IMG/VR virus record: IMGVR_UViG_3300030012_004380
Span: 1 to 39,410 of that record
Strand: one strand, 5' to 3'
DNA length: 39,410 nt
From: a virus
Every line of letters starts with the position of its first letter. Positions within the stretch are counted from its first letter, which is position 1. The notes beneath the pieces are model-generated. The model worked only from the letters and a program-made list of their open reading frames with translations, was not told where the DNA came from and made no database searches. This document shows positions 20,318-37,645 of this stretch, one piece after another. The position numbers and the translations under genes are program-made.

Positions 20318-21034
20318 TTATCCGTGTGATTTTTTGTAGTCAGCTACTTTTCCTACAAGCTGCCATCCAGTGAAGATGGCTAAATCAAAAGAAGCAAAAG
20401 CGTTTAAAGTCATATCAACTGCTCTTTTAACGTCAGGGTGTGCGTAATCGTCAAAAAAGACCACCCCGCCAGGCTTAACCATTGGCACATACAAAGTAAT
20501 GTCACGAGCAACTGAAGTCGAATCATGTGCTCCATCGATATAAAGGATATCGATCCATGGTTCTGACCCATAACGGTGGTAAAGATGAGGATAAATTAAG
20601 TGTGAATAACCTTTAATAATTTCAACTTTGCCTGCATTATCAGATTTGGCGATATTATCTCGTGCAGTCACCTCAAGTTGAGATAATCCGGGGTATTTTT
20701 CAGGCTCTCGTAGATGTTCTTCGCTTCCTGTAAACGGGTCAATAGAAATAAGACGTGAATTAGGGTTATTCAGATAAAAATCTGACCAAAAACAGCTAGA
20801 AGCACCTTCGTACACTCCGATTTCAACGATTTGTAGTTTTTTTGTAGCGTCTAATTCAATTTTTTTGTCAGTATTGTTGTTCTGTATTAGATGTTCGCTG
20901 TTGAGAAGAGCGTCATACCATCCTTCTGTAAATGTATAGCGGTCACTCAATTGTTTTTTGCATTTGGTTTCGATTTTAACGTTAGTATTATCTTTAAGTT
21001 GACCCATAAGGTCTTGGAAAGAGGATGCAGTCAC
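20318..21034 (-). CDS. Class I SAM-dependent methyltransferase (Methyltransf_24-like)
   Basis: A 238-residue protein with a Rossmann methyltransferase fold: motif I VEIGVYEGASS, acidic loop ISIDPFTG, DILYIDGAHDSTSVARDI (motif IV region) and PGGVVFFDDYAHPDVKRAV. This arrangement is typical of Methyltransf_24/CmcI-like enzymes, which often methylate sugars in surface polysaccharide clusters. GTG 21034 is the only usable start because an in-frame stop lies just upstream. The gene is a minus-strand island in the rightward block, consistent with separate acquisition. A second enzyme of this class lies at 22738-23418. Confidence 0.85.
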   Translation of the reverse strand: MTASSFQDLMGQLKDNTNVKIETKCKKQLSDRYTFTEGWYDALLNSEHLIQNNNTDKKIELDATKKLQIVEIGVYEGASSCFWSDFYLNNPNSRLISIDPFTGSEEHLREPEKYPGLSQLEVTARDNIAKSDNAGKVEIIKGYSHLIYPHLYHRYGSEPWIDILYIDGAHDSTSVARDITLYVPMVKPGGVVFFDDYAHPDVKRAVDMTLNAFASFDLAIFTGWQLVGKVADYKKSHG

Positions 21035-21076
21035 TTGTACTCATGTAAACATCAGCATGGTAACAGTCATAAACAG

Positions 21077-21104
21077 TTGAGCAACGGATTTTTTAGGGTA
21101 TATT
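21077..21104 (+). promoter_or_regulatory. Probable promoter for tRNA-Leu and following genes
   Basis: The -35 box is TTGAGC (21077-21082, four of six), the -10 box is TATATT (21099-21104, five of six), and the spacer is 16 bp. The tRNA begins 11 bp downstream, so the transcript would start almost at its 5' end. Confidence 0.5.
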
Positions 21105-21114
21105 TCTCACGTCA

Positions 21115-21200
21115 GCCTGAGTGGTGGAATTGGTAGACACAAGGGACTTAAAATCCCTCGACTTGGAAAAGTCATGCGAGTTCAAGTCTCGCCTCAGGTA
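21115..21200 (+). tRNA. tRNA-Leu (anticodon UAA)
   Basis: An 86-nt class II tRNA. The acceptor is GCCTGAG/CTCAGGT (one G-U pair) with discriminator A, and the D arm contains GGTAGACAC. The anticodon stem is AGGGA/TCCCT with loop cttaaaa, which places UAA at 21149-21151. A long variable arm (CGACTTGGAAAAGTCATG) and T arm GCGAG-TTCAAGT-CTCGC complete it. CCA is not encoded. It would read UUA leucine codons, which are frequent in the AT-rich genes of this phage. A protein gene starts only 12 nt downstream. Confidence 0.95.
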
Positions 21201-21212
21201 TTTAATTTTTTT

Positions 21213-21707
21213 ATGGCACTTAAATCTTCTTCTTCATGGGTTGAACTGACTTGTGATCGTTGTGGAGTTTACTTCAAGCGCAGAGCTTCTGAACACCGTT
21301 CGAATCAAAAAAGAGGTAGGACTAAATGTTATTGTTCTTTTAAATGTGCTGGTAAGACTCCTCCCAGGGTTTACGAATCTAAAACAGAATCACAACGTAT
21401 AAAAGCAGCTCGTGATTCTTTTAGAGAACAATGTCCTAGTTGCGGAGAAAGATTTTTAGCTGTTGTTGCTTCCAGACTTAATAAACAAGGGCATCGTCGT
21501 CGTAAAAAACACTGTCTTCACTGTAATTATCGTTTTACTACGATTGAATTACCTGAGGCAGAAGCCCACGGGGTAATGAGCATACATCCACTTGTTTGTC
21601 AAACATGTTCGCACAATAATTTAGAAAAAATGTGCTGTGATTTTGAGACTCCTGAGTACATGACTCCTGACTCAAATGATTGCAACTTGTTTAAAAAACG
21701 GTCTTGA
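21213..21707 (+). CDS. Zinc-ribbon protein with NrdR-like ribbon, no ATP-cone
   Basis: A 164-residue protein with three cysteine clusters. Finger 1 is C14-C17 with C39/C41/C45. A central ribbon CPSCGE...VVASRLNKQGHRRRKKHCLHCNYRFTTIE (C74/C77/C101/C104) closely matches the zinc ribbon of NrdR, the ribonucleotide reductase repressor. A third cluster is C129-C132, C141-C142 and C157. The NrdR ATP-cone domain is absent. DNA or RNA binding is likely, and a true NrdR role is doubtful. ATG 21213 is chosen because an upstream in-frame start (21174) would lie inside the tRNA. Confidence 0.8.
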   Translation: MALKSSSSWVELTCDRCGVYFKRRASEHRSNQKRGRTKCYCSFKCAGKTPPRVYESKTESQRIKAARDSFREQCPSCGERFLAVVASRLNKQGHRRRKKHCLHCNYRFTTIELPEAEAHGVMSIHPLVCQTCSHNNLEKMCCDFETPEYMTPDSNDCNLFKKRS

Positions 21708-21752
21708 CTTATCCTCACTCACGTTATTATTCATCAAGTTGTTTATTTTTAC

Positions 21753-21941
21753 GTGCAAGACAAAAAATGGATAAAAGGACCTAGAGGTGCTAGTTATTAC
21801 ATTAATGAACAAGGTGACAAAGTATACCGCAGATACCAAGAAAAAAAATATCCACGTGGTTACAAGCCGAAGCAAGGTGCTTTTTATAGGCATCTTCAAA
21901 ATCAACGTGGTAAGAATGGCGATAATCTAAATTTGTGTTAG
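21753..21941 (+). CDS. Small basic hypothetical protein
   Basis: A 62-residue Lys/Arg/Tyr-rich protein from GTG 21753, MQDKKWIKGPRGASYYINEQ.... The sequence KGPRGASYYINEQGDKVYRRY looks like a small beta unit with a nucleic-acid-binding composition. No family is recognised and the GTG start is the only one available. Confidence 0.55.
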   Translation: MQDKKWIKGPRGASYYINEQGDKVYRRYQEKKYPRGYKPKQGAFYRHLQNQRGKNGDNLNLC

Positions 21942-21952
21942 TATGCTGCTAC
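21938..21952 (+). repeat. Copy A of a 15-bp intergenic motif
   Basis: The sequence ttagtatgctgctac lies 13 bp before the glycosyltransferase gene at 21965. A near copy (12 of 15) lies at 32601-32615 before the GT17 gene, and another (14 of 15, inverted) at 18301-18315. The shared location just upstream of genes suggests a promoter or operator. Confidence 0.5.
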
Positions 21953-21964
21953 TGCTAAGGCTAA

Positions 21965-22735
21965 ATGAAAAGCATCCCTGTTCTGGGCACTGCGATTGTT
22001 AATACTCCTTACTGGCTACATCGGCTTTACATGAGTATCGATTACCCAGTAGAAAATTTTGTTGTCTTTAATAACAACGGTCGCGGTCAGATTACTCACG
22101 AAGTTGATCTGCTAAAAGAGATACCAAACAACAACGTAAAAAACGTTCAAATTTGTCACTTACCTGCGAATATCGGATGCAGTGGCGCTTGGAATTTAAT
22201 TATTAAAAGTTTTTTGAAAGCTCCTTATTGGGTTATTTCAAACCACGACGTTAAGTTTGAGCCTGGTTTTTTACAGGAAATGAACGAGAAAGCTCAAGAC
22301 CAGGAAGTAGGTATTGTTCACGGGTCAGGCGGTGGTTGGGATATCTTTCTGCTTAAAGACTGGATGGTTCAAAAATACGGTCTTTTTGACGAAAATTTAT
22401 ACCCCGGCTACTGCGAAGACATGGACTACGGGATGAGGTTTATACATGACGACGTCAAGCGAGTGCTTGATCTAGAAACAGAGTACTACCACGGTTCTAA
22501 GAAAAATGATTATTCCGACGGTTCACAAACTTGGCGCTCCGAACCAGCAATTGCTCAAGGTATTCACATAGCTCACGAACTGAATAAGCAGTATTTGCAT
22601 TTGAAGTGGAATGAGTCTTGGCAGTCTCATGTTGAAGGAGAAACTTATAAAACTCCTTTCAATCTTCAGGAAATGCCACTAAGTTTCACGACATTCGATC
22701 TAGGCTTCGTCCGCCGCAAACATCTCGGTTTTTAA
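21965..22735 (+). CDS. Glycosyltransferase, GT-A fold (GT2-like)
   Basis: A 256-residue GT-A type enzyme expected to transfer a sugar from a nucleotide-sugar donor. The family pattern is seen in FVVFNNNGRG near the N-terminus, NIGCSGAWNLIIKSF (the conserved N-x-G-x-x-x-x-x-N segment), and NHDVKFEPGF (DxD-like metal/donor site). YPGYCEDMDYGMRF follows with the acidic catalytic region. No membrane segments are visible. It is followed 2 bp later by a methyltransferase gene, so the pair may build a methylated sugar. Acceptor (virion protein or host glycan) is unknown. Confidence 0.85.
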   Translation: MKSIPVLGTAIVNTPYWLHRLYMSIDYPVENFVVFNNNGRGQITHEVDLLKEIPNNNVKNVQICHLPANIGCSGAWNLIIKSFLKAPYWVISNHDVKFEPGFLQEMNEKAQDQEVGIVHGSGGGWDIFLLKDWMVQKYGLFDENLYPGYCEDMDYGMRFIHDDVKRVLDLETEYYHGSKKNDYSDGSQTWRSEPAIAQGIHIAHELNKQYLHLKWNESWQSHVEGETYKTPFNLQEMPLSFTTFDLGFVRRKHLGF

Positions 22736-22737
22736 CC

Positions 22738-23418
22738 ATGAAAAATGTGCGTCACCGTATTCCGAGTGAATGTTGGTCTGTTGATGACGATCAAGCTGCT
22801 CAAGCTTTTGAAGGTTGGGACTACGTTCTTAAAAGCATCGAAACAGCTACTAAATGCCGCATCGATTGTGATGGAACTTTTGTCAATTGTTTTCCTGGTG
22901 ATCATTATAAGCTTTTGGCTGGTCTTATCTTTAATCTAGATCGTTCTAATGGACCTGTTAGTATGGTCGATATTGGGACACACTATGGAACTTCTGCACG
23001 GGTGATGCTAGATTTTTCCGATCAAAAAGATCGGGTCACTACATTCGATGTAGTACCATACACTTCACCTACTCAAACTTACCTTACAGAAGAGGACTTT
23101 TCTTCCAAACTTACACAACGAGTAGAAGATCTTAAAGAACATAATGTTTTTGCTAAACGAGCAAAACTACTTACAGAAGCTGACTTTATTATGTGTGATG
23201 GACCTAAAGACGGTATTTTTGAGAGAACTTTTTTAAGTAAACTTTCAACGTTAAAGTTCACTACTAAACCACGTTGGTTGCTTCTAGACGATATCAAGTG
23301 GATCACTGAACAACCGTTGTGGAGACTTATAGCCTCACCAAAGGTTGATCTCACTTCATTCGGTCATTTCAGCGGCACAGGTTTGGTTGACATTTCTGAA
23401 GGTCTTAAGTTGAGGTGA
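22738..23418 (+). CDS. SAM-dependent methyltransferase-like protein
   Basis: A 226-residue protein with a Rossmann methyltransferase pattern: VSMVDIGTHYGTSARVML (motif I), VTTFDVVPY (acidic loop), ADFIMCDGPKDG and PRWLLLDDIKW. It is related in type to the enzyme at 20318-21034 but divergent. It sits between a glycosyltransferase and a Cro-like regulator and overlaps the latter as TGATG. A role in methylating a sugar is inferred from context. Confidence 0.75.
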   Translation: MKNVRHRIPSECWSVDDDQAAQAFEGWDYVLKSIETATKCRIDCDGTFVNCFPGDHYKLLAGLIFNLDRSNGPVSMVDIGTHYGTSARVMLDFSDQKDRVTTFDVVPYTSPTQTYLTEEDFSSKLTQRVEDLKEHNVFAKRAKLLTEADFIMCDGPKDGIFERTFLSKLSTLKFTTKPRWLLLDDIKWITEQPLWRLIASPKVDLTSFGHFSGTGLVDISEGLKLR

Positions 23419-23690
23419 TGCCTTTTTACTCCGCACACACAGCTAGTGGTTATTTAATAAATAACCTTAAAGATTTACTCACGCAAAAAGATATTTCTTC
23501 TTTTGCGTTGAGTAAACAAGCTTCTCTTTCACCTACAACAACTAGAAAAATATGTAACGATGAACGTTATATTCCATCTCCGGATGTACTTGAAAAGATC
23601 TGTCTGACGTTAGATGTTTCTCCCGGCGACGTTTTGGGAATACAGAGTACAATAGGGTTATCTGTTGCTGTAGGTTCCGGTGTTTTCTAG
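23418..23690 (+). CDS. Cro/CI-type (XRE) helix-turn-helix regulator
   Basis: A 90-residue protein with an XRE-type HTH: LKDLLTQKDISSFALSKQAS, then LSPTTTRKICNDERYIPSPD and VLEKICLTLDVSPGDVLGI, the familiar five-helix pattern. The C-terminal ~18 residues are short and hydrophobic with no extra domain. ATG 23418 overlaps the upstream TGA. It overlaps the next gene by 11 nt. It probably regulates phage transcription, and its location inside a virion-type operon is unusual. Confidence 0.85.
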   Translation: MPFYSAHTASGYLINNLKDLLTQKDISSFALSKQASLSPTTTRKICNDERYIPSPDVLEKICLTLDVSPGDVLGIQSTIGLSVAVGSGVF

Positions 23691-24183
23691 GGAAGATTAC
23701 GCTTTCGCAGCTCGTCTACTCGGTCTCCCAACGCCGATTACTCCGGACGAGCAAGCTGCTGCAGCCCCAGTTGTTGCTGACGTTCTTCGAAAGTTTGCAC
23801 AAGGACGAGCCCCTACTTTAGAGGGCGAGCCTGGTGGTATTTATACCGGTGCCACACGGTCAATTAACTCTTATCCAGATATCGACGACCCTATGGGTCG
23901 CAATCAGTTAGCAGCGCGTCTGCGTGTCGAACAGGTTGAACCTCCTTCAATGGATCCGGTTCTTGTTGAGCTTATCGATCGAGTTTGTCAACGTCCCGAT
24001 TTAATGGACGAAATGCTGGTGTTCCTGGACATGTTGGAACAACAGAGCAATATGCACATGGAAGAACTGTCTGCTCAACGTCCTGCCGAATATGACACAC
24101 CCAATATGGGTGCTAACTATTCGATGTTGAATGCACCGTCAAGTAACAATATACCTCCGTCTATTCAGTATCAAGCATTGTGA
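23680..24183 (+). CDS. Hypothetical virion-module protein
   Basis: A 167-residue protein from GTG 23680, acidic and Pro/Met-rich, with helices YAFAARLLGL and DEQAAAAPVVADVLRKFAQG near the N-terminus and a helix DLMDEMLVFLDMLEQQSNMH. The segment GEPGGIYTGATRSIN faintly recalls the GAGSIYSGTNTGN units of the protein at 833-2188. It is coupled to both neighbours. No family is recognised. Confidence 0.75.
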   Translation: MFSREDYAFAARLLGLPTPITPDEQAAAAPVVADVLRKFAQGRAPTLEGEPGGIYTGATRSINSYPDIDDPMGRNQLAARLRVEQVEPPSMDPVLVELIDRVCQRPDLMDEMLVFLDMLEQQSNMHMEELSAQRPAEYDTPNMGANYSMLNAPSSNNIPPSIQYQAL

Positions 24184-24419
24184 TGATGAACTATCGCGAA
24201 CAACAATTACGCGAACGGGACATACGGAACAATGTTCCAGGTGTTGACGCTAATGATTTTTTGCGTCGTTATCTGGCTTCTAATTTTCCTCAGACAGCTG
24301 CTATGCCCTCAAGAGAACAAAAAGGTTCAGTTATGCCAATGTTTCCTGGTGAAAATGACTTAAAATCGATAAAGAAACCGCTTAGCGGGACACAGTACGA
24401 CAAACCCGGAGTTAACTAA
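24183..24419 (+). CDS. Hypothetical small protein of the virion module
   Basis: A 78-residue basic protein, MMNYREQQLRERDIRNNVPG..., with a helical N-terminus and a Pro/Met-rich unstructured end. It overlaps the previous stop as TGATG and the next start as TAATG, so it is translated as part of the operon. Function is unknown. Confidence 0.65.
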   Translation: MMNYREQQLRERDIRNNVPGVDANDFLRRYLASNFPQTAAMPSREQKGSVMPMFPGENDLKSIKKPLSGTQYDKPGVN

Positions 24420-24886
24420 TGGCTGATCCTATTACATCTTCAGTTGTAGGAAGCACGATTGCGTCATTAATCCCTTCTTTAATACAAGGGCTTTTGGGTT
24501 CGGGCGGCGCTTTACGTTCTCCGACACCTCCTGGTGGTACAGCAAGTAAGTTTACGATCCCAGCGAGTGATGTACAGGGTCTTTATCAATGGGTGCAAAA
24601 AGAGAACTTCCGTAGAGGTATGCTCGGGATGCCCAAGTTAGATCCTGAAAAAATTCTCGACGATACTATCCGTCGAAATAACGAAGCTCTTGAAGAGTCC
24701 GCACGCCGTGAAGCTTATTTAGCTCGTGTGAAAGGCGAGCAGCTGAATATCGGTCAAGGCATTTCTTCTCTCGGTAGCTTGGGCCAAGAAGGAGAAAGAA
24801 CTCTTCAAACAGCAATTGATAAAGTTTTAGCTCAGGATCCAGTAGGATCTAATCAAGCACTTGCAAACTTAAGCAGAGGTTTCTGA
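24419..24886 (+). CDS. Probable internal virion protein (small)
   Basis: A 155-residue protein with a hydrophobic/Ser N-terminus (SSVVGSTIASLIPSLIQGLL, about 7-26) that could insert in a membrane. A Gly/Pro hinge and a long charged helix (ILDDTIRRNNEALEESARRE, about 80-110) follow. Together with the next two genes it resembles the sets of ejection or internal virion proteins of short-tailed phages in size, composition and position. That assignment is inference. No family is recognised. Confidence 0.7.
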   Translation: MADPITSSVVGSTIASLIPSLIQGLLGSGGALRSPTPPGGTASKFTIPASDVQGLYQWVQKENFRRGMLGMPKLDPEKILDDTIRRNNEALEESARREAYLARVKGEQLNIGQGISSLGSLGQEGERTLQTAIDKVLAQDPVGSNQALANLSRGF

Positions 24887-24891
24887 ATATT

Positions 24892-25584
24892 ATGGCAAGT
24901 TACGAAGGACTACCCGAAATTTTTGCTCCTTCTGTGGCTGAGGCTACGGGAGATATTAGGTTTGACCCTTCGTTTGGAGGAAAAGTCAAGCCTACTCAGG
25001 AAACTTTAGACCGAATTGAAAGCAGTCGATCCATCGACCCAAATGTGCTGGGTAAAGATTTACCGGCTCCCATTCGTAATTTAATGAATGAGCGTTTAAG
25101 ACTCGAAGGCAAATATAATCTTCCTTCTACAGATACTTCTGAGACTTATTATCAAAGACGACCCATCTCTGATACACCGACTCGTCTTCCTGGTGATCAG
25201 CCACAACGCACAACCAATGCGTTGGGTGATTTAGTTGATGTTCTTCGGACTGAAATAAAAGAACGAGGTAGCAGACAAGATCGAATCATTTCTGATGAGT
25301 ACCTAGACGCCCAAATGCGTCGTAGGCAACAGGAATTAGCGTACGCCACCGATCTTCTCTCAAAGGCCCAGATGGGTCAGATGAAAGAGAAGACTCGTCG
25401 GGACGTGATCGACGGGTGGCGCAAGATCCAGCAAGAAAAGATTCGTGCCAATACCATTATGGCAACAGCCATGATGAACACCGCTTATCTCGCTGCGACT
25501 CCTAACGCCAACGTTTTAAGTGCATTAAACGTCGCATCTGATTCTGCGATGCGTGCTTTCCAACCCGGTCAAGCGGTTAACTAA
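24892..25584 (+). CDS. Probable internal virion protein
   Basis: A 230-residue protein: a mostly disordered N-terminal half with Pro/Ser/Arg residues and a helical C-terminal half (SRQDRIISDEYLDAQMRRRQ ... WRKIQQEKIRANTIMATAMM). The last part is Ala/Asn/Met-rich. It starts 5 bp after the previous stop. The composition suits a protein packaged in the virion. Function is unknown. Confidence 0.7.
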   Translation: MASYEGLPEIFAPSVAEATGDIRFDPSFGGKVKPTQETLDRIESSRSIDPNVLGKDLPAPIRNLMNERLRLEGKYNLPSTDTSETYYQRRPISDTPTRLPGDQPQRTTNALGDLVDVLRTEIKERGSRQDRIISDEYLDAQMRRRQQELAYATDLLSKAQMGQMKEKTRRDVIDGWRKIQQEKIRANTIMATAMMNTAYLAATPNANVLSALNVASDSAMRAFQPGQAVN

Positions 25585-25586
25585 TC

Positions 25587-26435
25587 ATGATGCCACTTTT
25601 TGAGCTTTCCTCCACGCTCCTCCCCCATCTTCATTTTGGAATTTTTCCTGCCGCTTTAGTAGCTGCTGCTCCCACGATTGGCGCTATTGGTACTGGCCTA
25701 GCCGGTGCAGGTACTTTAATTGGTGCTCTTAGAGGTGGCGGCGGCGGAGGTGGCGGAGCTGCTGCTGCAGGAGGTATGGGAGATTATTTTAAACTTTACG
25801 GTGCTCAAGCTGCAGCAGCTAATGTACCCCTTACTATTGCAGCTCAACGTTTTGGACAACAAGGAGGCGCAAACGTCGGTGCTTTAGCTACATTTACAGA
25901 AGGTTTGAGTAGTGGTCAAAAGACTATTCTTAAAGACGCTGCCACGGATTCACAAGCTGCTCGTACAGGACAGATAAGAGAAGTGACTGGTATGTTAGAT
26001 GCTGGTCGATCACTGGCGCAAGAAGTCGGCCAGATGAAGACGGCAACTGAGATGCTCAATCCTATGTATGCCCAAAAAGCTGCGTCGGATTCTCTAAAAG
26101 CCGATAATGAACTTGGTTTAAATTTCGGTAGAACTAATTTAGGGATCAAGGCTGCACAGGAAGGAGCTAAAATTAACATCGCTCAAAAGTACAGTGATAC
26201 TCTGTCTAATATGCTGAGCAACAGGGCAATTACGGAAGGTAATCTGGCGACAGGCGCACAACGTATTGCAGGTGCTCTTGCTCTTAATGATGCTCAAACC
26301 ATCAGTGATTTAACGCGTAATCAGGCAAAGGTCAAAGGTAACATTGCTCTAATTGGAGCTAACATGAACGCTACCAAAGAGCTTCGTCGCAATGCCATGG
26401 GTATTGCAATGACGGGTAACCAATACTTTGCATGA
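25587..26435 (+). CDS. Probable internal/ejection protein with Gly-Ala segment
   Basis: A 282-residue protein. The N-terminus is hydrophobic and Ala/Gly-rich (FGIFPAALVAAAPTIGAIGT), followed by eight consecutive Gly and then AAAAGG (about 50-63). The remaining ~215 residues form a long polar helical region with repeated Ala/Gln/Asn, as in phage proteins that are ejected with DNA. The start lies in TAATCATG, the same start-site sequence seen in the leftward small genes. Function is inferred from composition and context. Confidence 0.7.
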   Translation: MMPLFELSSTLLPHLHFGIFPAALVAAAPTIGAIGTGLAGAGTLIGALRGGGGGGGGAAAAGGMGDYFKLYGAQAAAANVPLTIAAQRFGQQGGANVGALATFTEGLSSGQKTILKDAATDSQAARTGQIREVTGMLDAGRSLAQEVGQMKTATEMLNPMYAQKAASDSLKADNELGLNFGRTNLGIKAAQEGAKINIAQKYSDTLSNMLSNRAITEGNLATGAQRIAGALALNDAQTISDLTRNQAKVKGNIALIGANMNATKELRRNAMGIAMTGNQYFA

Positions 26436-26956
26436 TTGATACTGAAGTTCGAGCTACTGTCGCCGATTGGTTACAGTCGCTAGATAAAACTCAGAAAGAC
26501 TCATTTCTTCACTACGCAAAAAACGCTACGAGTGATATCGAGTCTTATTTATATGCACGTTTTATGCGCCCTTCGTATGAGGGTTCAATTGCAGACATTA
26601 CTGCTTGGATTCAAGAAAAGTATCCCAAGCAAGATTTACGCAAGGTCTTATTGATCGAAATTGACTCTTTAAAAATCGACATTGATAACGTAAGGCAAAT
26701 GACCCTTACGGGGATGCTAGATCATGCAACAGCAGCGACGAAAATTAGCGTACTGCAAAAAGAACTCCGATCGCATATCCAAGCCGTACGACAGCTCACT
26801 GATGGTCTCGACCGCCGTGGTCTTTTACTTGCTGGTGCGGATCGTTGTTTACGTGAGCTTCTGAATAGTTTTGAGGATGCTCCAACCATGGCTTCTCTGT
26901 TAGAGGACGCCTCATTGGTTGTTTGGTCAACTATTGAAAGGGAAGAAAAGTCTTGA
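26432..26956 (+). CDS. Hypothetical helical protein of the virion module
   Basis: A 174-residue almost entirely helical protein, MIDTEVRATVADWLQSLDKT..., overlapping the previous gene by ATGA. Size and helical content would allow a terminase small subunit, and the large subunit lies 2.4 kb downstream past a minus-strand island, but no motif proves it. Other options are a head-completion or internal protein. Confidence 0.7.
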   Translation: MIDTEVRATVADWLQSLDKTQKDSFLHYAKNATSDIESYLYARFMRPSYEGSIADITAWIQEKYPKQDLRKVLLIEIDSLKIDIDNVRQMTLTGMLDHATAATKISVLQKELRSHIQAVRQLTDGLDRRGLLLAGADRCLRELLNSFEDAPTMASLLEDASLVVWSTIEREEKS

Positions 26957-27168
26957 GCAGTCGTAAAAAAATTATCGATTATATAGAAGACACAGAATGG
27001 GATAGAGAGTGTCTACCCCATTATGGACTTATACCCGACTGGTATATACGTTATAACGAACTAAGAGATCTTATCTGTGCCTACTTCAATGGGCTCCAGG
27101 AGAGCGAGGATGTTAACGAGGGGGCACTTGAAGATGCCCATAAAGGAGTCGTTGACACCCAAAGCTAA
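26953..27168 (+). CDS. Hypothetical small acidic protein
   Basis: A 71-residue acidic protein with a TTG start overlapping the previous stop as TTGA. The N-terminal two thirds (KKIIDYIEDTEWDRECLPHY, WYIRYNELRDLICAYFNGLQ) is protein-like. The last ~35 codons overlap the 3' end of the convergent GH130-like gene by 108 nt, an unusually long antisense overlap. Function is unknown. Confidence 0.6.
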   Translation: MSSRKKIIDYIEDTEWDRECLPHYGLIPDWYIRYNELRDLICAYFNGLQESEDVNEGALEDAHKGVVDTQS

Positions 27169-28173
27169 TTCAATCTCGTCATTTTCTTCGTTGTAGATAC
27201 CGCCAAAAGGCAACACACAAGCAGGTTGTTTTGAGATCGGACGACCCGTGACGTCTGTCCACCAGATCAAACGATCATTTGTAGAGCCACTAAATAAAGC
27301 TTCAGTACACTGACGAGTAATTTTTGTAAAATTTTCGTCAAGTGTATAAGCCCCTAAATGATACAGAAGGTATGAAATTTGATGCTTGCTGTCGTAGGCC
27401 ATATATTTCCAGTGAAAAAATACTAGCCATTCGTTGCCAATTTTAATCGGTGATGTAGAATTAAAAGTTGGATACTCTCCAGTAACCTTTTTCAAGCTAC
27501 TCGAATCGATAGTTTTATCAGGCTGTCCAGGAGTTTTGATCGTAAGAGGAATTGTTGAGTACAACAAACGAAGACTTTTATCTTCGCTGAAGAAACACCA
27601 GTTCTTCTCAGGTTTACCTTCAGCAAGATTATCGCCAGCTGGTGGATAAACACAGTCCACAACTTTTCCAAAGTCGTCTACACGACCCACACACACTTTT
27701 GGTTGATTAACCATCTTGTGTTTGGATGAGTCGTACTTACTTGCGTAAGAACTCGTGATGAACTGTAGGTAAAGATTGTCATCTGGAGCGACAAAAAGAC
27801 GTGGATCTTCGTAACTCAATCGATGAGGTTTTTCACGAATTTTTTTCGCACCAATGATGGTTTCGTCTCCGATCAACTCACCGACATAAACCTCCGTAGG
27901 AGTGTTGTTGTAGTAAAAGTATTTGGAGTCGTGCCTGAATGTAAAAGCTTCTGGTTGATTCCTCCAAGTAATTAAGCGATGTCCCTGGTGCGAAATTAAA
28001 CAGGGGCTAAAGTTAGCGACTGTCTGATCAGGAAGACCGTATTTAATACGTGTAAATGTGCCGCCAATATCAGAGGCTTGTTGATAAACCGTGGGGTATC
28101 CAGTTGCAGAACGAATGTCGACTGGATGCTCTACGTAACTGAGGGTAGTATCGTAACGAGTTTGCTGGGTCAC
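27061..28173 (-). CDS. GH130-like beta-propeller glycosidase/phosphorylase
   Basis: A 370-residue protein with the feel of the five-bladed beta-propeller of GH130 mannoside phosphorylases and related glycosidases. It has YEDPRLF (EDPR at 122-125, the conserved active-site segment), a central FNSTSPIKIGNEWLVFFHW, and CVLPFGGIYNEENDEIELALGVNDSFMGIFK near the C-terminus, which matches the usual final blade pattern. It overlaps the upstream GT4 gene by 4 nt (GTGA), so they form a two-gene sugar operon. GH130 is the best guess, and the substrate and whether it is active are unknown. Confidence 0.65.
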   Translation of the reverse strand: MTQQTRYDTTLSYVEHPVDIRSATGYPTVYQQASDIGGTFTRIKYGLPDQTVANFSPCLISHQGHRLITWRNQPEAFTFRHDSKYFYYNNTPTEVYVGELIGDETIIGAKKIREKPHRLSYEDPRLFVAPDDNLYLQFITSSYASKYDSSKHKMVNQPKVCVGRVDDFGKVVDCVYPPAGDNLAEGKPEKNWCFFSEDKSLRLLYSTIPLTIKTPGQPDKTIDSSSLKKVTGEYPTFNSTSPIKIGNEWLVFFHWKYMAYDSKHQISYLLYHLGAYTLDENFTKITRQCTEALFSGSTNDRLIWWTDVTGRPISKQPACVLPFGGIYNEENDEIELALGVNDSFMGIFKCPLVNILALLEPIEVGTDKIS

Positions 28174-29336
28174 TTGAGCACCTCCATGGCTTTTGCAAAA
28201 CCTTCAGCGACCGCTTCCCATCGGTACTGAGGGTTTTGAGTAACGTTGTAGCAATCGTCTGCAACTTTTTTGCGGAAAGTTTCGTCCTCGTATAGTCGGG
28301 TCAAAAGTTCTGCAGCGTGCTTGTAATCGATAATGCCACGCTCAACGTTAAGATCTTTGTCGTTTACCCAAGCTCCGATATTAATTAACAAACCACTTCC
28401 GTCCCAAATATCTTTACAAGAAGTGTGATTAGGCACAACTTGAGCCTTACGACACATAGCGTGCTCAAAAGGAACTAAGCCCCAACCCTCACCGTTTGCA
28501 GTGTTGAGGCCAACATCGCAAGCGTTATAAATAAGATTAAGCTGTTCGTCAGGAGGCGCAGCATGATAATTCATGTTTGGTGTCATCGCTACTTTTTGAG
28601 TCGGATCTATACCACGTCTACGCAGCTCAGTTTCCAAGAGCTCTTTGACGTGCCAACCTAGATCTTTTTCAGCCATATTCAGATAAAGAAGAACGTCTTC
28701 TTTACCTACGCAGAACTCAGCGAACGTCTTAATCGTCTGATCAATGCATTTACGTGGTTGGTTTCGATTTCCGTTAAAGACAATAAATTTGTCTTTAGGA
28801 AGACCAAGTCGTTTACGAGCTTCATTTTGATCAATTTCGTAGAACTTATCTCGATCTAAACCGTGAGGCACGACGCCCATTTTTTTAGCTTGAACCCCGT
28901 GAGCCATTAAGCGTTGGGCTTGTTCTATTGTGAAAGTAATCGCAAAATCCCAGTCTTTAATGTACCGAAGCATGGGTAACGGATACCACTCAGAATCAGT
29001 AGGAAAATATGCAATAAATTTGAAATCAAACTGAGCTTTAAGAAAATGAATTCGTTCCCAGATTTGGTTGCAAATCCAAATGTCATTTAGACAGATAAAA
29101 AAGTCAGGTTTTTCTTTTTCAACAATCTGTTGAATACGTCCCACCCCAAAACGATCTCCTTGGTTGTGAGCTGAGGCTGGATAAATTTTGAAGGGGTAGT
29201 CGTGAGGATCTCCTTGATAATTAATTCCGTAGACTACAACTTCATGATCTTTTTTTAAGTAGTCTAGAACACTGTGTGTTACACGAGCAAAGCCGGTATT
29301 TGAAACAGCATCGCCGTACCAAAGTATCTTCGCCAT
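28170..29336 (-). CDS. Glycosyltransferase family 4 (GT-B)
   Basis: A 388-residue GT-B glycosyltransferase. The N-terminal domain starts ILWYGDAVSNTGFARV. The C-terminal domain carries FNGNRNQPRKCIDQ (phosphate-binding R191 and K196) and the donor-binding EX7E motif EGWGLVPFE (E283/E291), both diagnostic of GT4. It lacks membrane segments and would act in the cytoplasm. It starts 45 bp from the divergent terminase gene. Together with the GH130-like gene it makes a leftward island within the rightward virion block, consistent with insertion as a unit. Confidence 0.93.
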   Translation of the reverse strand: MAKILWYGDAVSNTGFARVTHSVLDYLKKDHEVVVYGINYQGDPHDYPFKIYPASAHNQGDRFGVGRIQQIVEKEKPDFFICLNDIWICNQIWERIHFLKAQFDFKFIAYFPTDSEWYPLPMLRYIKDWDFAITFTIEQAQRLMAHGVQAKKMGVVPHGLDRDKFYEIDQNEARKRLGLPKDKFIVFNGNRNQPRKCIDQTIKTFAEFCVGKEDVLLYLNMAEKDLGWHVKELLETELRRRGIDPTQKVAMTPNMNYHAAPPDEQLNLIYNACDVGLNTANGEGWGLVPFEHAMCRKAQVVPNHTSCKDIWDGSGLLINIGAWVNDKDLNVERGIIDYKHAAELLTRLYEDETFRKKVADDCYNVTQNPQYRWEAVAEGFAKAMEVLK

Positions 29337-29381
29337 GCAGAGTTAGAATTTCGCTAACAGTATACGAGCAGTTTTAAGAAA

Positions 29382-30902
29382 ATGCCTAGTAGAGAAACTT
29401 ACGCATATCGACGTGCTCTTAAGGCAAGAGCGCAAAAAGCTATCGATAGTAATGATTCTGTAATAGATAGTGTCTTTCACCGCGCTCAAAATGATTTCTT
29501 GACATTCTGTACGCTTCTTGATAAACCTCCAGCTAAACATATGCTGGAATGGCACCAAGAATTAATTACGGGAGAAAGCAATAAATACCTTATTGATATA
29601 GCTGGGCCAAACCTTGATATTTTGAGCCCGCGTGGTTCTGCAAAGTCAACCGTTCTCAACTTGTTTACAGCCTGGGTTATTGGAAAGCACACAACTGCAC
29701 AACGTCCACTCCAGATTATCTATTGTTCATATAACATCGCTACTGCCATACCCAAAAGTCGAATTATCAAACAAATTATTGACTCATCTACTTTCAAGAA
29801 AATATTTCCAAAAGTAAAGCTCAAGGCAGGTATGCAGAGCGATATTGGTTGGTCTATTGATTTTGACTATGCAGGTATTGACAGAATCGGTGATGAAGAA
29901 TTTACGCTCCGTGCGGCGGGTCTTCGGGGTTCTATTACATCGAAAAGGGCACACCTCGTCATCGTGGATGACCCCATCAAATCAAGCTCCGACATTAAAA
30001 ACCCAGCTGTGCGGGAAGAAATGAATAACAACTGGTCGTCAGTTATCGCTCCGATTGTCTTCGAGGGTGGACGTTCGATCTGTCTAGGCACCAGATTCCA
30101 CCCTTTGGATATCCACAAAACCATGTTCACTCCAAAAAAAGGCTGGAAACAGGTGTCTCAAGAAGCACTTACTTATGACAAACAAGGCGAACCAATCAGT
30201 TATTGGCCTGAGCAGTGGTCTGTTAGTTACCTAATGAGTCAAAAAGAGCTTGATCCTGTTGCATTTGCTTACCAGTACCAGCAGCAGCCGGTAATGACAT
30301 CTGATTTAGTGCTTTCACCTGATCTTCTGGTTAAAGGTGAAGTTGAAACTGAATTTGATTCACTTGCAGTCGGTATCGACTTATCAGCTAGTAAGAATGA
30401 GACTTCTGACTACACAGCTTTTGTACTAGGAGGACGGTTAAAAGATAAGTATTTTATAATCGATTCTCATCAAGTCAGGTCAATTGGAAACTTAGAAAAA
30501 ATTGACTTATTGTGCGACATGCTTGTCGAATGGGGAATACTAGAGTTACAAGATGATCAGTATTTTCCGACTTATTCAACAGTCACACTTGTTGTAGAAG
30601 CAGTCGCATATCAAGCTTCCTTAGCGGCAGATTTAAAGCGTGTGCTTCTTGTCGAGCGAGGGCTGAGCAATCTTAATATTCACGAGGTAAAAGGCTTTAG
30701 GGGCGACAAAATTGCCAGATTTCGAGGCACTCTTGGAATTTTAGAAAACAAAAAAGTCACCTTTAATAAATATCGTAAATTCGATGCTTTAATGGATCAG
30801 ATCATAAACGTGGGTGCAACGTCGCATGATGACTTGCTTGATGCTTACACACACTTGATCAACTACCTACAACGAAGAGGCAACTACAACGTCGAGTTCT
30901 GA
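29382..30902 (+). CDS. terL: Terminase large subunit
   Basis: A 506-residue DNA-packaging motor protein that translocates and cuts phage DNA at the portal. ATPase: Walker A SPRGSAKST (82-90), Walker B LVIVDD (192-197). Nuclease (RNase H-like): D333 in GIDLSASKNETSDYTA, E406 in VVEAVAY, and D483/D484 in SHDDLLDA. All catalytic positions are present. It has a weak or no Shine-Dalgarno sequence and diverges from the GT4 gene. The following glycosyltransferase-like gene overlaps by TGATG. Confidence 0.95.
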   Translation: MPSRETYAYRRALKARAQKAIDSNDSVIDSVFHRAQNDFLTFCTLLDKPPAKHMLEWHQELITGESNKYLIDIAGPNLDILSPRGSAKSTVLNLFTAWVIGKHTTAQRPLQIIYCSYNIATAIPKSRIIKQIIDSSTFKKIFPKVKLKAGMQSDIGWSIDFDYAGIDRIGDEEFTLRAAGLRGSITSKRAHLVIVDDPIKSSSDIKNPAVREEMNNNWSSVIAPIVFEGGRSICLGTRFHPLDIHKTMFTPKKGWKQVSQEALTYDKQGEPISYWPEQWSVSYLMSQKELDPVAFAYQYQQQPVMTSDLVLSPDLLVKGEVETEFDSLAVGIDLSASKNETSDYTAFVLGGRLKDKYFIIDSHQVRSIGNLEKIDLLCDMLVEWGILELQDDQYFPTYSTVTLVVEAVAYQASLAADLKRVLLVERGLSNLNIHEVKGFRGDKIARFRGTLGILENKKVTFNKYRKFDALMDQIINVGATSHDDLLDAYTHLINYLQRRGNYNVEF

Positions 30903-31774
30903 TGCAATCTATTTATATAGCGATCACAGCGCACAACCCTCTTTCTCGTATAGAGAAAATTCTTGCAGTTTTAAGAGCTTACGAAACTCTCCCTCTAAAG
31001 GTTTACGTAGAGTTCTTTATTGACCATGAACATGCCTACGACCTAGATGAATTTTCACTCATTGTTGGAGGACATGTTCATTTAAATCAAGTCAGTTTTA
31101 GTGTCGCGGATGAGTCTTATGTTGGTTTTGCGCTTTGTTGGGCTCATAAAGCAAGTTTTGCAAAAGCTGTAAGAGATAAAAAATATGACTTTTATATGTA
31201 TACAGAAAATGATATGTTTTTTGGGTCTAAGCAGTTTATTTATTGGCGCGATTATAAAGATTTACTCAAACCATTAAATCTTGAACCTGGTTTTTGCCGA
31301 TACGAGGAATATGAAAATCTTGATATACCTTTTGATAATTACAAAAAGTGGAATTTAAATAAACTTACCCCTGACGTTTGGGGAAAAACACCTTACAAAT
31401 GTCAAACAATTTTGACGCCGAACGACAAAAATTTTCTTGGTTTTACGTCCCTTGGTAACCCTTACGCAGGTTTAATGATTCTTGATCAAGAAGACGCCGA
31501 AAAATATATTACAAGTGAGAGCTGTCATCCCCAACTGAGTCACCGTGTCGTTGGCAAACGTAACTGGCCGATTGCTGATCGAAGTTCTATGGGTTTAGCT
31601 TTTGAGGGACTAAAGCCAAATCAAGAACATCGTCGAGTTGTGCCTTTAGTTAAGTTCGGTAACTCAGTCAAAATCCACACATGTGGTTTAGTGAGACATC
31701 TTGATGTTAAATATTCGCCTGATTTATACGAAGAATCAGATACGATTCATACCGAAAACATGTTTTTGACTTAA
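30902..31774 (+). CDS. Glycosyltransferase-like protein (GT-A)
   Basis: A 290-residue protein with a GT-A type N-terminal half (IYIAITAHNPLSRIEKIL; FYMYTENDMFFG as a DxD-like acidic site). A second half contains WPIADRSSMGLAFEGLKP and IHTCGLVRHLDVKYSPD. It is translated together with terminase (TGATG) and DUF3310 (TAATG). The nearest analogy is to capsular or LPS glycosyltransferases, but the specific family is not certain. Acceptor unknown. Confidence 0.65.
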   Translation: MQSIYIAITAHNPLSRIEKILAVLRAYETLPLKVYVEFFIDHEHAYDLDEFSLIVGGHVHLNQVSFSVADESYVGFALCWAHKASFAKAVRDKKYDFYMYTENDMFFGSKQFIYWRDYKDLLKPLNLEPGFCRYEEYENLDIPFDNYKKWNLNKLTPDVWGKTPYKCQTILTPNDKNFLGFTSLGNPYAGLMILDQEDAEKYITSESCHPQLSHRVVGKRNWPIADRSSMGLAFEGLKPNQEHRRVVPLVKFGNSVKIHTCGLVRHLDVKYSPDLYEESDTIHTENMFLT

Positions 31775-31989
31775 TGGAAGCAGTAAACCACCCCGCACAT
31801 TACTCACAGGGTGAGATTGAGTGTATCGACGCGATGATGTCTGCTGCAGGCATTGAAGGCGTAAAATCTTTTTGCCATCTTTCTTGTTTTAAGTACCTCT
31901 GGCGATTCCAACACAAAAACGGAGTAGAGGACCTGAAAAAAGCCCAGTGGTACTTGAATAAACTTATTGAAATAAGCACGTTAGACTGA
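31774..31989 (+). CDS. DUF3310 protein
   Basis: A 71-residue protein matching DUF3310: NHPAHYSQGEIECIDAMMSA, then SFCHLSCFKYLWRFQHKNG and EDLKKAQWYLNKLIE. The family is common in phages and sometimes called a nucleotide kinase-like protein, though its activity is not established. TAATG coupling to the upstream gene fixes the start. Confidence 0.9.
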   Translation: MEAVNHPAHYSQGEIECIDAMMSAAGIEGVKSFCHLSCFKYLWRFQHKNGVEDLKKAQWYLNKLIEISTLD

Positions 31990-32006
31990 AAAAAAAATAA
32001 TCGTTC

Positions 32007-32294
32007 ATGGACATCCGCGCTTTTGGGTCGGTATACGGACAAACTTCTAAGCTTCCGATGTGCAGTGGGTTTGTCTGGACGCCTTCTGATGGAGAGACAA
32101 CCTTTGGTACCTGTAGGGCTTTGTTTGTCGAATCAAAAAACTCATCCGCAAAAGATGATTTTTACGTCCGTCTAAATGACATGGCTGTAAACGAATTTAT
32201 CCATGTGGAAAATATTGCTGGTGATATGCAACTGGACTGGGGTGCCGTAACATTAAGTGGAGGATCTGTTAACGGCGTAGTCGTATTGTACTAA
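32007..32294 (+). CDS. Small beta-rich virion-type protein
   Basis: A 95-residue protein with a beta-sandwich look: TFGTCRALFVESKNSSAKDD, FYVRLNDMAVNEFIHVENIA, LDWGAVTLSGGSVNGVVVLY. The layout resembles short phage proteins that decorate heads or spikes (a strand-rich domain ending in a hydrophobic I/V-V-L-Y). It lies between DUF3310 and the next gene (TAATG overlap). The exact family is not certain. Confidence 0.6.
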   Translation: MDIRAFGSVYGQTSKLPMCSGFVWTPSDGETTFGTCRALFVESKNSSAKDDFYVRLNDMAVNEFIHVENIAGDMQLDWGAVTLSGGSVNGVVVLY

Positions 32295-32593
32295 TGAGTG
32301 ATTTTCAAGAATTTGGTAATATCCTTGCCAAAAGGTACGCCCAGGCGGTTGGTGCTGCGAATAAACAAAGAGCACAAGATCAGCCCGTCACTCAAGATTT
32401 TGAATTTACCGAACAAAGCAGTTTCAATCAGGAACCAGGCGGTCCTACCCCACCAGAAATGCCTTCAACTAATGACGGGGCTGCTCAGTTCGAAACGATA
32501 TCTACTCCCCCAGAAGACCAAGACACAGAAGATATGAAAAACTTTCTTCTTAAACAGAGTAAAAAACGTTTTCAGGCGGATGCTATGAATTGA
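32294..32593 (+). CDS. Hypothetical disordered protein
   Basis: A 99-residue protein rich in Gln, Glu, Pro and Thr, with a short N-terminal helix (FQEFGNILAKRYAQAVGAAN) and a basic C-terminal helix (MKNFLLKQSKKRFQADAMN) joined by a disordered linker. It is coupled by TAATG to the upstream gene. Function unknown. It may be a small assembly protein. Confidence 0.6.
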   Translation: MSDFQEFGNILAKRYAQAVGAANKQRAQDQPVTQDFEFTEQSSFNQEPGGPTPPEMPSTNDGAAQFETISTPPEDQDTEDMKNFLLKQSKKRFQADAMN

Positions 32594-32600
32594 GATTAAG

Positions 32601-32615
32601 GTAGCATACTGCTAC
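32601..32615 (+). repeat. Copy B of a 15-bp intergenic motif
   Basis: The sequence gtagcatactgctac forms a 6-bp inverted repeat (gtagca-tac-tgctac) and matches the copy at 21938-21952 in 12 of 15 positions. It lies 14 bp before the GT17 gene. Both positions are directly upstream of glycosyltransferase genes. Confidence 0.45.
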
Positions 32616-32629
32616 TTAGCTTAAATACA

Positions 32630-33451
32630 GTGCTGATCGATTGCTTTCCTTATTTTAACGAGAAAGAGATTCTTGAGCTTCGTGTAGAAACTCTGAAAGA
32701 TTATGTAGATGGATTTTTAATTACAGACGCAAATCGCACTCACAGGGGCGATCCTAAAGAGTTTTCATGCGTTGAAACTATTAAGGAACTAGGGCTGCCT
32801 GAGGACAAGATTCAAGTTCTGCACGTAGAACTACCTCCATACGAAGAAGCTCCTGATCCATGGGTAAGAGAACGAGGTCAGCGTGACGCTTTGAGTGTCG
32901 GTCTTTTTATGATGCCAGACGACACTTATTTTATTTGCAGCGACTGCGACGAAATTGCAAACCCGTCCAAGCTTACAGAAATTAAAGAAGCAGTAGATAC
33001 TCACTGTGATAAAACTGTAAGGTTATCAATGTCAATGCACTATGGAAGAGCTGATCGTCAGCTTATTTCACCTGAAGAAATAAAGTTCGATTGGCGATGT
33101 GGCGTTGTTTCGACAGTCGGTCAGCTCAAAGATTTTGGGACGCTTTCGTCATTGAGGGCGACCACAAATAACTGGTATGTGGGTAATAGGGACGCTGGTT
33201 GGCACTTTAGCTGGATGGGTGACAGTAAGCGTCGTAAGACAAAACTACGAAATATAGCTGAGTATTATATTTGGGATAAACCAGAAGTACAAAAACTATG
33301 TGATGACTTTGTACCAGAAGAAGGTAATACAGACATGCTAGGACGTAAAGATCACTTAATTACGTCTTACCCAGTTTCAAAACTTCCAGAAGCAGCCCTT
33401 AGAATAGAGCGAGTACGGAACTACCTCTTGCCTGATGGTTCTGAGGTCTAA
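32630..33451 (+). CDS. Glycosyltransferase family 17-like
   Basis: A 273-residue protein with the GT17 pattern known from beta-1,4-N-acetylglucosaminyltransferase-like proteins: IDCFPYFNEKEILELRVETL, then VDGFLITDANRTHRGDPKEF, WVRERGQRDAL, and FICSDCDEI (DxDE at 105-108, metal/donor site). GTG 32630 is the start. No membrane segment is visible. It directly precedes the portal gene, so it is expressed late with the head genes, which fits modification of virion proteins. Acceptor unknown. Confidence 0.85.
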   Translation: MLIDCFPYFNEKEILELRVETLKDYVDGFLITDANRTHRGDPKEFSCVETIKELGLPEDKIQVLHVELPPYEEAPDPWVRERGQRDALSVGLFMMPDDTYFICSDCDEIANPSKLTEIKEAVDTHCDKTVRLSMSMHYGRADRQLISPEEIKFDWRCGVVSTVGQLKDFGTLSSLRATTNNWYVGNRDAGWHFSWMGDSKRRKTKLRNIAEYYIWDKPEVQKLCDDFVPEEGNTDMLGRKDHLITSYPVSKLPEAALRIERVRNYLLPDGSEV

Positions 33452-33457: not shown

Positions 33458-35677
33458 ATGACAGCTTCTGTTGACATCCGTAATCAGTTTGAAGAGATCC
33501 TTGAGGCTGCTCGGTCTCAAGATCGTTCAAATCAAGCTGCGACGATGGTGGTTTTAAGCCACCTACAACAAATGACCCTCTTAATGATTAAGAAAGGTCT
33601 GTCTTTTTATTGTGATCAGGATACTTTTAAAAGTAGAACTAAGTTTATTCATGACGTAATTGAACTTAATCGTCTTGATATAAGATTTCCTGCGATTATT
33701 AGAAATTTTTTAATTGATGGTTCTGGACTTTTTTACTTTCGTCCGGACCCGAAATTAAAATATCAAATTTATTTTTTCAATAAAAAACAATATCGTGTTT
33801 ATCACGATGCAAACGGACAAATTGATGAAGTCGTTATTCTTTACGATTACAAGGTAAAGAACAATAATCTTGGTTTACCGAGTGATGTTTACGGCCAAAA
33901 CAAACGTTATGTACGTTTAAGCATTACTGCTGATGAAATTACTGAAAACGAGTCAGACACTGAGCTTAGTTTTGAGCTTGAGCCTGGCGGGATACTTACT
34001 GCAGATCGAAAAAGACCTAATCAGCTTGGATTTGTCCCTGCTGTTGAGGTTTTAAATAAACCAAACGCCAGTGGTACAGAAGGAGAGGGTGATTTTGACC
34101 CCTTTATGGAGCAAATTGTGCTTCATGATCAGATGCTCCGAAATATTTCCAAAAATATTGAGTTTTTTGGTAACCCAACACTTATTTCCAGTCGTCCGCG
34201 CTCGGATTTAGTCGAAGCGTCGGATTCTGGAAGCACTTTTAGACCCACAATCAGCTCACAGTCTGGTTTTGCGGGTCAAAATACACCTTCAACGCGCGTT
34301 AGCGAACCTTTTGGCTCTGCAATGGGTGGTGGTTTGCGTGTTCCACGCATAATTGCCAATGTCGAACCCTCTGATCGAGTCGGTTACATGACTCCAGACC
34401 CGATTAGCGGTGACATGAACCGTTATTCGCTTCTTTTACGTGAAGAAATTCGCACAGCGCTTGGCGGAGTTGATGAAATCTCTATTTCGGCAGGTGCGAC
34501 TGCTACAGAAATTAAAGGCTTGATGGGTCGTGCTCAAGCGACTGCAACAAGGAAAAATAAGAGCTTTTTGACTTACGGATTCTGTGCGCTCTTGGAAATG
34601 ATGATTTATCACCAAGAACAAGTTTTCCGTGAGTCATTTATCGCAGCTCTTAACTTAAAAGAACCTAAAGAACCTGAAAACGTAACTGAAGAATCGTATG
34701 AAAAGTTCCGCAAGGCTTTGATTCGGTTCGAAACCAAGGTTAAACAAGAAATGCAGAAGGCACTTGTTGAAAATAAAGTGCCTCGTGGTGTTATCGGTCT
34801 ACCAGAAGATGGTGACCGTAATGTCAGCTACAGATACCAGGGTGATGTCTACGAAGACACTGCTTATGACGTCCTACAAAAATCAATGGTCGTCCGCAAT
34901 ATGCAGGAATTAGGTGTTGAGAGCGTAGAAGCTCTTAAATATCTTTTTCCTGATAAAAATGAGTCTGAACGTGCCGAAATGTTGAAAGGATTTCCTTTCA
35001 GAATGGTTGGACAAGTTCAGTCGTCAATGCAGCAGTTCCTGGTATTATTAAACCAGATGTTGCAGTCTCCGCATCCTCTTGCGCCTGATCAACCTTTAGC
35101 GGCTGATCCTAGACTGAATATCACTCCGCTCCTTTACAGGACATTCGATCACCTTGCGGAAGAACTAACTTACTCGGGTAGCTATGAGCCAGCAGATCCA
35201 AGCTTCGACCCCGAGCCCGGTCTCCCCGGCGGCAGCCCCGGCGGTAATCAGCGACCAGGGCTCAACGACCGCCTCTCCGCAGCAGTGGGTGGTCCAAGGC
35301 GCTACCCCAGCGGTAGCTTCGGTTCCTACAGCCCAACCGCCGTCCCAGGTGGCACCGGCTTCGGATCCTTCTATCAATCCCCAGTACAACCCGTCAACGT
35401 ACAACTCCTCCCCGAGCAACCCTTGGGAAGCAGCGATGGGTTCCCTGGAGCGGGTGCTAGCCTCCCAGGCACCATCCCTCAACCAGGCAGCACCGTATCA
35501 GACCCAGGTACCACAGCAGGCTACAACACAGATCAGTCAGCCTTCTCAGGTCCAGCCTTGGGCTTACCAACAGCCGGTTCAGCAGACCTCGCCTACCAAC
35601 GTCTCACAGACCCAGACTTCTTATCAGGGTTCTACGGACAAGAGCCTAAGCGAGGCAAGCGCCGAGGTCGTTCGTAA
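33458..35677 (+). CDS. Portal protein with long Gly/Pro-rich C-terminal tail
   Basis: A 739-residue protein placed between terminase and capsid genes with the usual portal features. These are an N-terminal helix and wing (QQMTLLMIKKGLSFYCDQDT), a beta-rich segment (KYQIYFFNKKQYRVYH ... VVILYDYKV), a long central helix set (LLREEIRTALGGVDEISISA ... TEIKGLMGRAQATATRKNKS), and further helical stem region to about 570. The portal forms the 12-fold ring through which DNA is packaged. The last ~165 residues are Gly/Pro/Ser-rich and are encoded by the same DNA as the scaffold-like protein in another frame (35184-35677). The tail could be overprinted, and its end KRGKRRGRS is basic. Confidence 0.85.
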   Translation: MTASVDIRNQFEEILEAARSQDRSNQAATMVVLSHLQQMTLLMIKKGLSFYCDQDTFKSRTKFIHDVIELNRLDIRFPAIIRNFLIDGSGLFYFRPDPKLKYQIYFFNKKQYRVYHDANGQIDEVVILYDYKVKNNNLGLPSDVYGQNKRYVRLSITADEITENESDTELSFELEPGGILTADRKRPNQLGFVPAVEVLNKPNASGTEGEGDFDPFMEQIVLHDQMLRNISKNIEFFGNPTLISSRPRSDLVEASDSGSTFRPTISSQSGFAGQNTPSTRVSEPFGSAMGGGLRVPRIIANVEPSDRVGYMTPDPISGDMNRYSLLLREEIRTALGGVDEISISAGATATEIKGLMGRAQATATRKNKSFLTYGFCALLEMMIYHQEQVFRESFIAALNLKEPKEPENVTEESYEKFRKALIRFETKVKQEMQKALVENKVPRGVIGLPEDGDRNVSYRYQGDVYEDTAYDVLQKSMVVRNMQELGVESVEALKYLFPDKNESERAEMLKGFPFRMVGQVQSSMQQFLVLLNQMLQSPHPLAPDQPLAADPRLNITPLLYRTFDHLAEELTYSGSYEPADPSFDPEPGLPGGSPGGNQRPGLNDRLSAAVGGPRRYPSGSFGSYSPTAVPGGTGFGSFYQSPVQPVNVQLLPEQPLGSSDGFPGAGASLPGTIPQPGSTVSDPGTTAGYNTDQSAFSGPALGLPTAGSADLAYQRLTDPDFLSGFYGQEPKRGKRRGRS

Positions 35678-37625: not shown

Positions 37626-37645
37626 TTATCGATGTTCATCGATAA
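37626..37645. repeat. 20-bp inverted repeat spanning the capsid start codon
   Basis: Arms ttatcgatg (37626-37634) and catcgataa (37637-37645) are perfectly complementary with a 2-nt centre. The major capsid ATG (37632-37634) is part of the left arm. In the mRNA it could form an 8-bp stem with a 4-nt loop that hides the start codon. Confidence 0.75.

Follow-up and report, generated by a model that had tools for sequence, protein, structure and literature searches.

Virion glycosylation has been reported for the mycobacteriophages Che8, Corndog and Myrna (Freeman et al. 2023, cited through PMC12363180 and PMC12619734), in which phage-encoded glycosyltransferases act on the capsid and the tail tube; these phages are a candidate model for the locus described here. 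The chloroviruses PBCV-1 and NY-2A carry methylated capsid glycans made by their own glycosyltransferases and sugar O-methyltransferases (PMC9614988). Here, we analyzed a stretch of viral DNA of 39,410 nucleotides (IMG/VR record IMGVR_UViG_3300030012_004380, positions 1 to 39,410; hereafter, the window), in which seven genes for sugar or methyl transfer lie between positions 20318 and 33451. A sequence-only reading of the window had described these genes as a dispersed glycan-modification set inside the virion gene block, and all seven open reading frames (ORFs) were present where, and on the strands, it had placed them. We hypothesize that the set is probably a virion-glycosylation kit acting on one or more virion proteins.

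Three of the family assignments made in that reading, Methyltransf_24, GT4 and GT17, scored at or above the Pfam cut-offs. The Methyltransf_24 gene (20318-21034, minus strand), encoding a class I methyltransferase and likely sugar O-methyltransferase, matched PF13578 at 5e-21, above the cut-off, and TylF weakly. Its S-adenosylmethionine motif and other columns are invariant among 15 homologues, and it lacks the (N/D/S)PP(Y/F/W) motif of DNA methyltransferases; one of its PHROG matches carries the label 'DNA methyltransferase'. The GT4 glycosyltransferase, of the GT-B fold (28170-29336, minus strand), matched PHROG 2170 (4e-46) and Pfam Glycos_transf_1 (5.8e-6, at the cut-off) and has an invariant E-x7-E motif; its profile matched the chlorovirus NY-2A protein B736L (3oy2) with an E-value of 9.8e-34 and no T4-type DNA glucosyltransferase at an E-value of 0.001. 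The GT17 glycosyltransferase (32630-33451, plus strand) matched PF04724 Glyco_transf_17 at 1.7e-13, above the cut-off, and its SDxDE motif is invariant. For the GT2-type glycosyltransferase (21965-22735, plus strand), the match to PF00535 Glycos_transf_2 fell just under the cut-off (2e-4), the assignment being carried by PHROG 29879 'galactosyl transferase' (7e-21) and by HD and ED motifs that are invariant even when the homologues from phages S-CBS4 and phiPsal1 are included.

The remaining two sugar enzymes were identified largely through structure prediction. The product of 27061 (27061-28173, minus strand) matched no Pfam family in direct search, PF04041 included; Glyco_hydro_130 (PF04041) was matched by 12 of its 28 aligned homologues, at best with 1.2e-8. 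Its AlphaFold2 model (predicted local distance difference test score, pLDDT, 82.9) confirmed the GH130-like assignment and the five-bladed propeller fold: the top solved matches were GH130 mannoside phosphorylases (best E-value 1.7e-11), and an EDPR motif is invariant. The fold also matched MPT-2, a GDP-mannose-dependent mannosyltransferase, and sugar transfer is therefore possible, so that we describe this protein as mannoside phosphorylase- or transferase-like. The product of 30902 (30902-31774, plus strand) matched no Pfam family by direct search, and its predicted fold identifies it as a GT-A glycosyltransferase of no named family (pLDDT 94.9; GT-A matches in the PDB and in a viral library, best E-value 6.6e-7); its template modelling scores of about 0.4 indicate that the family is either new or very distant. 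When 27061, 30902, GT17, GT2 and 20318 were used in profile searches against PDB sequences, no match could be trusted. The seventh gene (22738-23418, plus strand) is Methyltransf_24-like by a weak Pfam match (3e-4) under the cut-off. The phage encodes conserved glycosyltransferases, apparently active to judge by their sequences, alongside its virion genes.

Our comparison covered loci around relatives of the head protein, the terminase and the GH130-like gene, with locus counts referring to distinct terminase sequences. Three genes served as anchors: the terminase large subunit (29382-30902, plus strand; PHROG 38, 1e-73), a portal-like virion structural protein (33458-35677, plus strand; PHROG 20475, 2e-163; PHROG 64 portal, 3e-7) and the major head protein (37632-38747, plus strand; PHROG 1357, 5.6e-22). 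This head protein shares 68% identity with its counterpart in Synechococcus phage S-EIV1, the sole phage record matched at the limit used, and the window is a fragment of an S-EIV1-related phage. Conserved co-occurrence in relatives, proposed in the sequence-only reading as its own test, was borne out. In 112/112 loci of the window's clade, the GH130-like and GT4 genes are minus-strand genes placed between 26432 and the terminase, 30902 and GT17 lie on the plus strand between the terminase and the portal in 98/98, and all four are present in the 70/70 loci that span the region. The GT2 gene is followed by a small helix-turn-helix regulator-like gene (23415-23690, plus strand; PHROG 2967, 1.3e-5) in 68/68 loci, and GT2 comes next after 20318 in 38/38. 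Both figures presuppose that GT2 or 20318, respectively, was found, because no upstream anchor is common to all loci. The clade is widespread and environmentally common.

In contrast, the same two intervals of the sister S-EIV1 clade contained set genes in 0/59 and 0/51 loci, and the portal tree splits the two clades with 100/100 support. Because the set is fixed in one clade and missing from these intervals in its sister, the simplest history is a single gain or loss on this branch, with retention ever since. Two loci that appear as lacking the set inside the window's clade of that tree (L010 and L076) reflect a labelling artefact: their contigs end inside the terminase and carry 30902 and GT17. 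None of ten S-EIV1 head-block proteins matched a Pfam family, and this block thus yielded no replacement glycosyltransferase.

The second methyltransferase behaves differently from this core. Gene 22738 is present in 19 of 68 loci and occurs as a divergent allele in one otherwise near-identical locus (L086); in three others (L271, L294 and L320), a homologue of it separates the 35184 ORF from the head protein. It is optional and exchangeable and not a core member. In some relatives, FkbM-type methyltransferases are encoded on the minus strand in the interval from 20318 to GT2. A fixed core with an exchangeable methylation layer is what one would expect of a surface glycan under diversifying pressure. 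In four loci, a further ORF of about 417 aa without a Pfam match (L148:12501-13754, plus strand) separates the homologues of 30902 and 31774, and ORFs of the same type occur between GT17 and the portal in three.

Selection was estimated against the closest relatives, as synonymous sites were saturated in more distant ones. Omega was 0.01-0.04 for GT2, GH130-like and GT4, 0.04-0.07 for 30902 and GT17, and 0.04-0.06 for 20318, with 0.015-0.017 for the terminase; purifying selection on the core set genes is strong and approaches that on the terminase. Gene 30902 had been described as fused by overlap to the terminase. There is no fusion: its start lies within the terminase stop codon (a 1-nt overlap, TGATG), the commonest arrangement among relatives (62 loci). 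The start of 27061 likewise lies within the stop of GT4 (GTGA), and 6 nt separate the end of GT17 from the portal start. The TGATG overlap and the GT17/portal spacing thus support co-expression of 30902 and GT17 with the packaging and portal genes, and we infer that the set may be expressed late, together with the head genes. Promoter and terminator scans gave signals at chance level and were not used.

The proposed layout held, with corrections. The minus-strand pair 27061/28170 agrees with the idea of insertions, being missing at that place from the sister clade. The placement of the set inside the virion gene block applies to the genes around the terminase and portal, but the interval 20318-23418 forms the upstream edge beside a transfer RNA (tRNA-Leu) gene, and the genes at 23680-26956, unnamed ORFs, received no PHROG or structural assignment in a PHROG scan. 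The view of these genes as a working set was upheld by clade-wide synteny, absence from the sister intervals, purifying selection and the existence of similar groups in the head blocks of unrelated phages.

These groups were found in several lineages. In S-CBS4, homologues of GT4 and GT2 stand side by side with a methyltransferase between the portal and the head protease, an arrangement seen in 19 IMG/VR loci, S-CBS4 itself being one, with some contigs ending before an anchor. In Pontimonas phage phiPsal1, GT4 and GT2 homologues lie with a methyltransferase, on the other strand, between the head and a neck protein. The S-CBS4 and phiPsal1 methyltransferases are 53% identical and belong to a different family from those of the window, and by search the structural genes of these phages are unrelated to the window's. 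In Tetrasphaera phage TJE1, a GT4 gene is found upstream of the terminase, accompanied by genes for a nucleotide-sugar epimerase and a methyltransferase, and Gordonia phage GMA2 carries a GT17 homologue between the terminase and the portal. Such genes have therefore been placed in head blocks in several lineages. Among cells, the sole relative of 30902 found in a genome scan adjoins MotA/MotB and a Maf-domain glycosyltransferase, a neighbourhood that, in this one case, resembles flagellin glycosylation.

Our model suggests that soluble glycosyltransferases would be produced from the same gene block as the terminase, portal and head protein and, with host sugar nucleotides as donors, would work in the host cytoplasm to assemble a short oligosaccharide attached to at least one virion protein. 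Adding, trimming or recycling a mannose-type sugar may fall to the GH130-like enzyme, and the glycan may be capped through O-methylation by one Methyltransf_24 enzyme or two. The virion-protein acceptor, the identities of the sugars and the order of the steps are our suggestions, and the benefit would be particle stability, shielding or adsorption control. The computed basis consists of families and folds, catalytic-type motifs, synteny, the terminase overlap, purifying selection and the lack of membrane segments. Among these, the set is fixed within the packaging/portal block, against none in the sister intervals, and GT4/GT2/methyltransferase groups recur in the head blocks of unrelated phages. 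By analogy, the model is also favoured by the best solved relative of GT4, B736L, which comes from a capsid-glycosylating chlorovirus group, and by the flagellin-glycosylation-like setting of the cellular relative of 30902.

Several points weigh against this model. The virion glycan and its acceptor protein are deduced here from the genes, and the cellular context of 30902 is a single case. The S-EIV1 homologue of GT4 (43%) sits outside its head block, which makes S-EIV1 a counter-example to head-block placement of this gene. Three genes (20318, 27061 and 28170) run opposite to the head genes, and their layout therefore implies no co-expression with these. Finally, the acceptor of B736L is uncertain, and the glycans of the NY-2A head protein are without mannose (PMC9614988). 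The virion, which the sequence-only reading had offered as one of two targets, nevertheless stands as the best of the options. A more specific form of the model, in which the phage clade has a chlorovirus-like capsid kit, that is, a clade-wide multi-step pathway making an O-methylated, mannose-containing virion glycan with a GH130/MPT-2-type propeller and an unnamed GT-A enzyme, from interleaved and partly translationally coupled genes, is tentative.

We weighed three other explanations. Late in infection, the enzymes could remodel a polysaccharide of the host surface, or the precursors of it in the cytoplasm, preventing released particles from re-adsorbing to debris or infected cells, as the sequence-only reading had also considered. 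Pathways for surface polysaccharides commonly include GT2, GT4 and GH130 enzymes and O-methyltransferases, and an exchangeable methylation layer is what antigens display. However, the genes are interleaved with packaging and portal genes, and membrane-like segments are found in none of the seven proteins (top 19-residue hydropathy 1.59); there is therefore no Gtr-type membrane machinery among them, and the membrane-bound glycosyltransferase of Gtr-type serotype conversion has no counterpart in the set. We consider this explanation unlikely. That the products form no set at all, being unrelated passengers or metabolic genes, such as a GH130-like enzyme for host storage or cell-wall mannosides, would agree with their dispersal, their various families and their distribution over both strands, with the loss of 22738 in some loci and its relocation in others, and with the catabolic roles of GH130 enzymes elsewhere. 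Yet the core genes occur together in every sufficiently long locus and at these positions in no sister-clade locus, and they are selected nearly as strongly as the terminase, so we regard this as the most improbable explanation of all.

The glycosyltransferases might instead decorate hypermodified bases of the phage DNA against host nucleases. Published work often finds phage glycosyltransferases to be DNA-directed, the set genes adjoin the terminase, and the PHROG label of 20318 mentioned above points the same way. Against this, the thymidylate synthase/hydroxymethylase family PF00303 was found in 0/13 long relatives, with positive controls, these relatives carrying ThyX; Tet_JBP was found in 0/13 in a search that had no positive control. 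The GT4 profile likewise matched B736L and no T4-type DNA glucosyltransferase, and 20318 has no NPPY-type motif. DNA modification is accordingly a poor candidate, and virion glycosylation the reading that we favour. In whole-genome scans of two relatives, no sugar-nucleotide synthesis gene appeared among the top 25 families listed, a result that is suggestive only.

Other features of the window and its relatives were recorded. At 833-2188 (minus strand), a protein carries a Thr/Pro/Gly tandem repeat (GGTTPTT-like), and its C-terminal part has a domain in common with 19243-19968 (plus strand; 43% over 82 aa); one could speculate that the Thr-rich repeat is a glycan acceptor. A tRNA-Leu (TAA) gene (21115-21200, plus strand) lies between 20318 and a zinc-ribbon-type ORF at 21174, and a relative's ORF in this interval matches an NrdR-type zinc ribbon. 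A tRNA was the sole match in a nucleotide-level search of the phage collection. The portal ORF overlaps the ORF at 35184-36101 by 494 nt in a different frame; both are kept in relatives, mostly with an overlap of about 460-500 nt, and the portal shows low synonymous divergence, which fits dual coding. The S-EIV1 terminase (L002:24081-26621) has 846 aa, against 506 aa in the window, with an insertion of about 340 aa, possibly an intein, that most of L167-L177 also have and other relatives lack. In one relative, an ORF for a LAGLIDADG endonuclease directly precedes the region of the head protein gene (L344:12105-12932, plus strand), and two ORFs at 5941-8684 (minus strand) resemble a pair of MoxR ATPase and von Willebrand factor A-domain protein (bpMoxR and VWA_CoxE in family scans of long relatives).

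By make-up, we infer, the set resembles the mycobacteriophage and chlorovirus systems. Unlike the mycobacteriophages, the window's clade has at least five sugar enzymes and a methyltransferase, fixed and interleaved with packaging genes; no mycobacteriophage was among the tblastn matches of the GT4, GT2, GT17, GT-A and GH130-like proteins, though remote homology is possible. The chloroviruses likewise combine several glycosyltransferases with a sugar methyltransferase, and GT4 is related to NY-2A B736L, but they are eukaryotic algal viruses with N-glycans, whereas this is a tailed phage, known from its genes, with GT17, a GH130-like enzyme and an unnamed GT-A. S-CBS4 and phiPsal1 likewise have homologous GT4 and GT2 genes, along with a methyltransferase, within their head gene blocks; their group is a compact one of three genes, with another methyltransferase family and unrelated structural genes, and a search found no GT17, GH130-like or 30902 homologue in them. 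In the S-EIV1 clade, terminase, portal, 35184-type ORF and head protein follow one another as in the window, without the set near the terminase. We found no published description of this enzyme set in the open-licence literature searched, and the combination of GT2, GT4, GT17, unnamed GT-A, GH130-like and Methyltransf_24 genes, their interleaving with packaging genes and their clade-wide fixation appear to be new.

To our knowledge, direct proof of virion glycosylation exists for few phages only, the mycobacteriophages. If our model is right, the fixation of such a multi-enzyme kit across a clade of phages common in aquatic habitats would mean that phages are able to make complex surface glycans themselves. 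The clade with the kit and the S-EIV1 clade without it offer a natural comparison, and the purpose of phage glycans outside animals would become testable.

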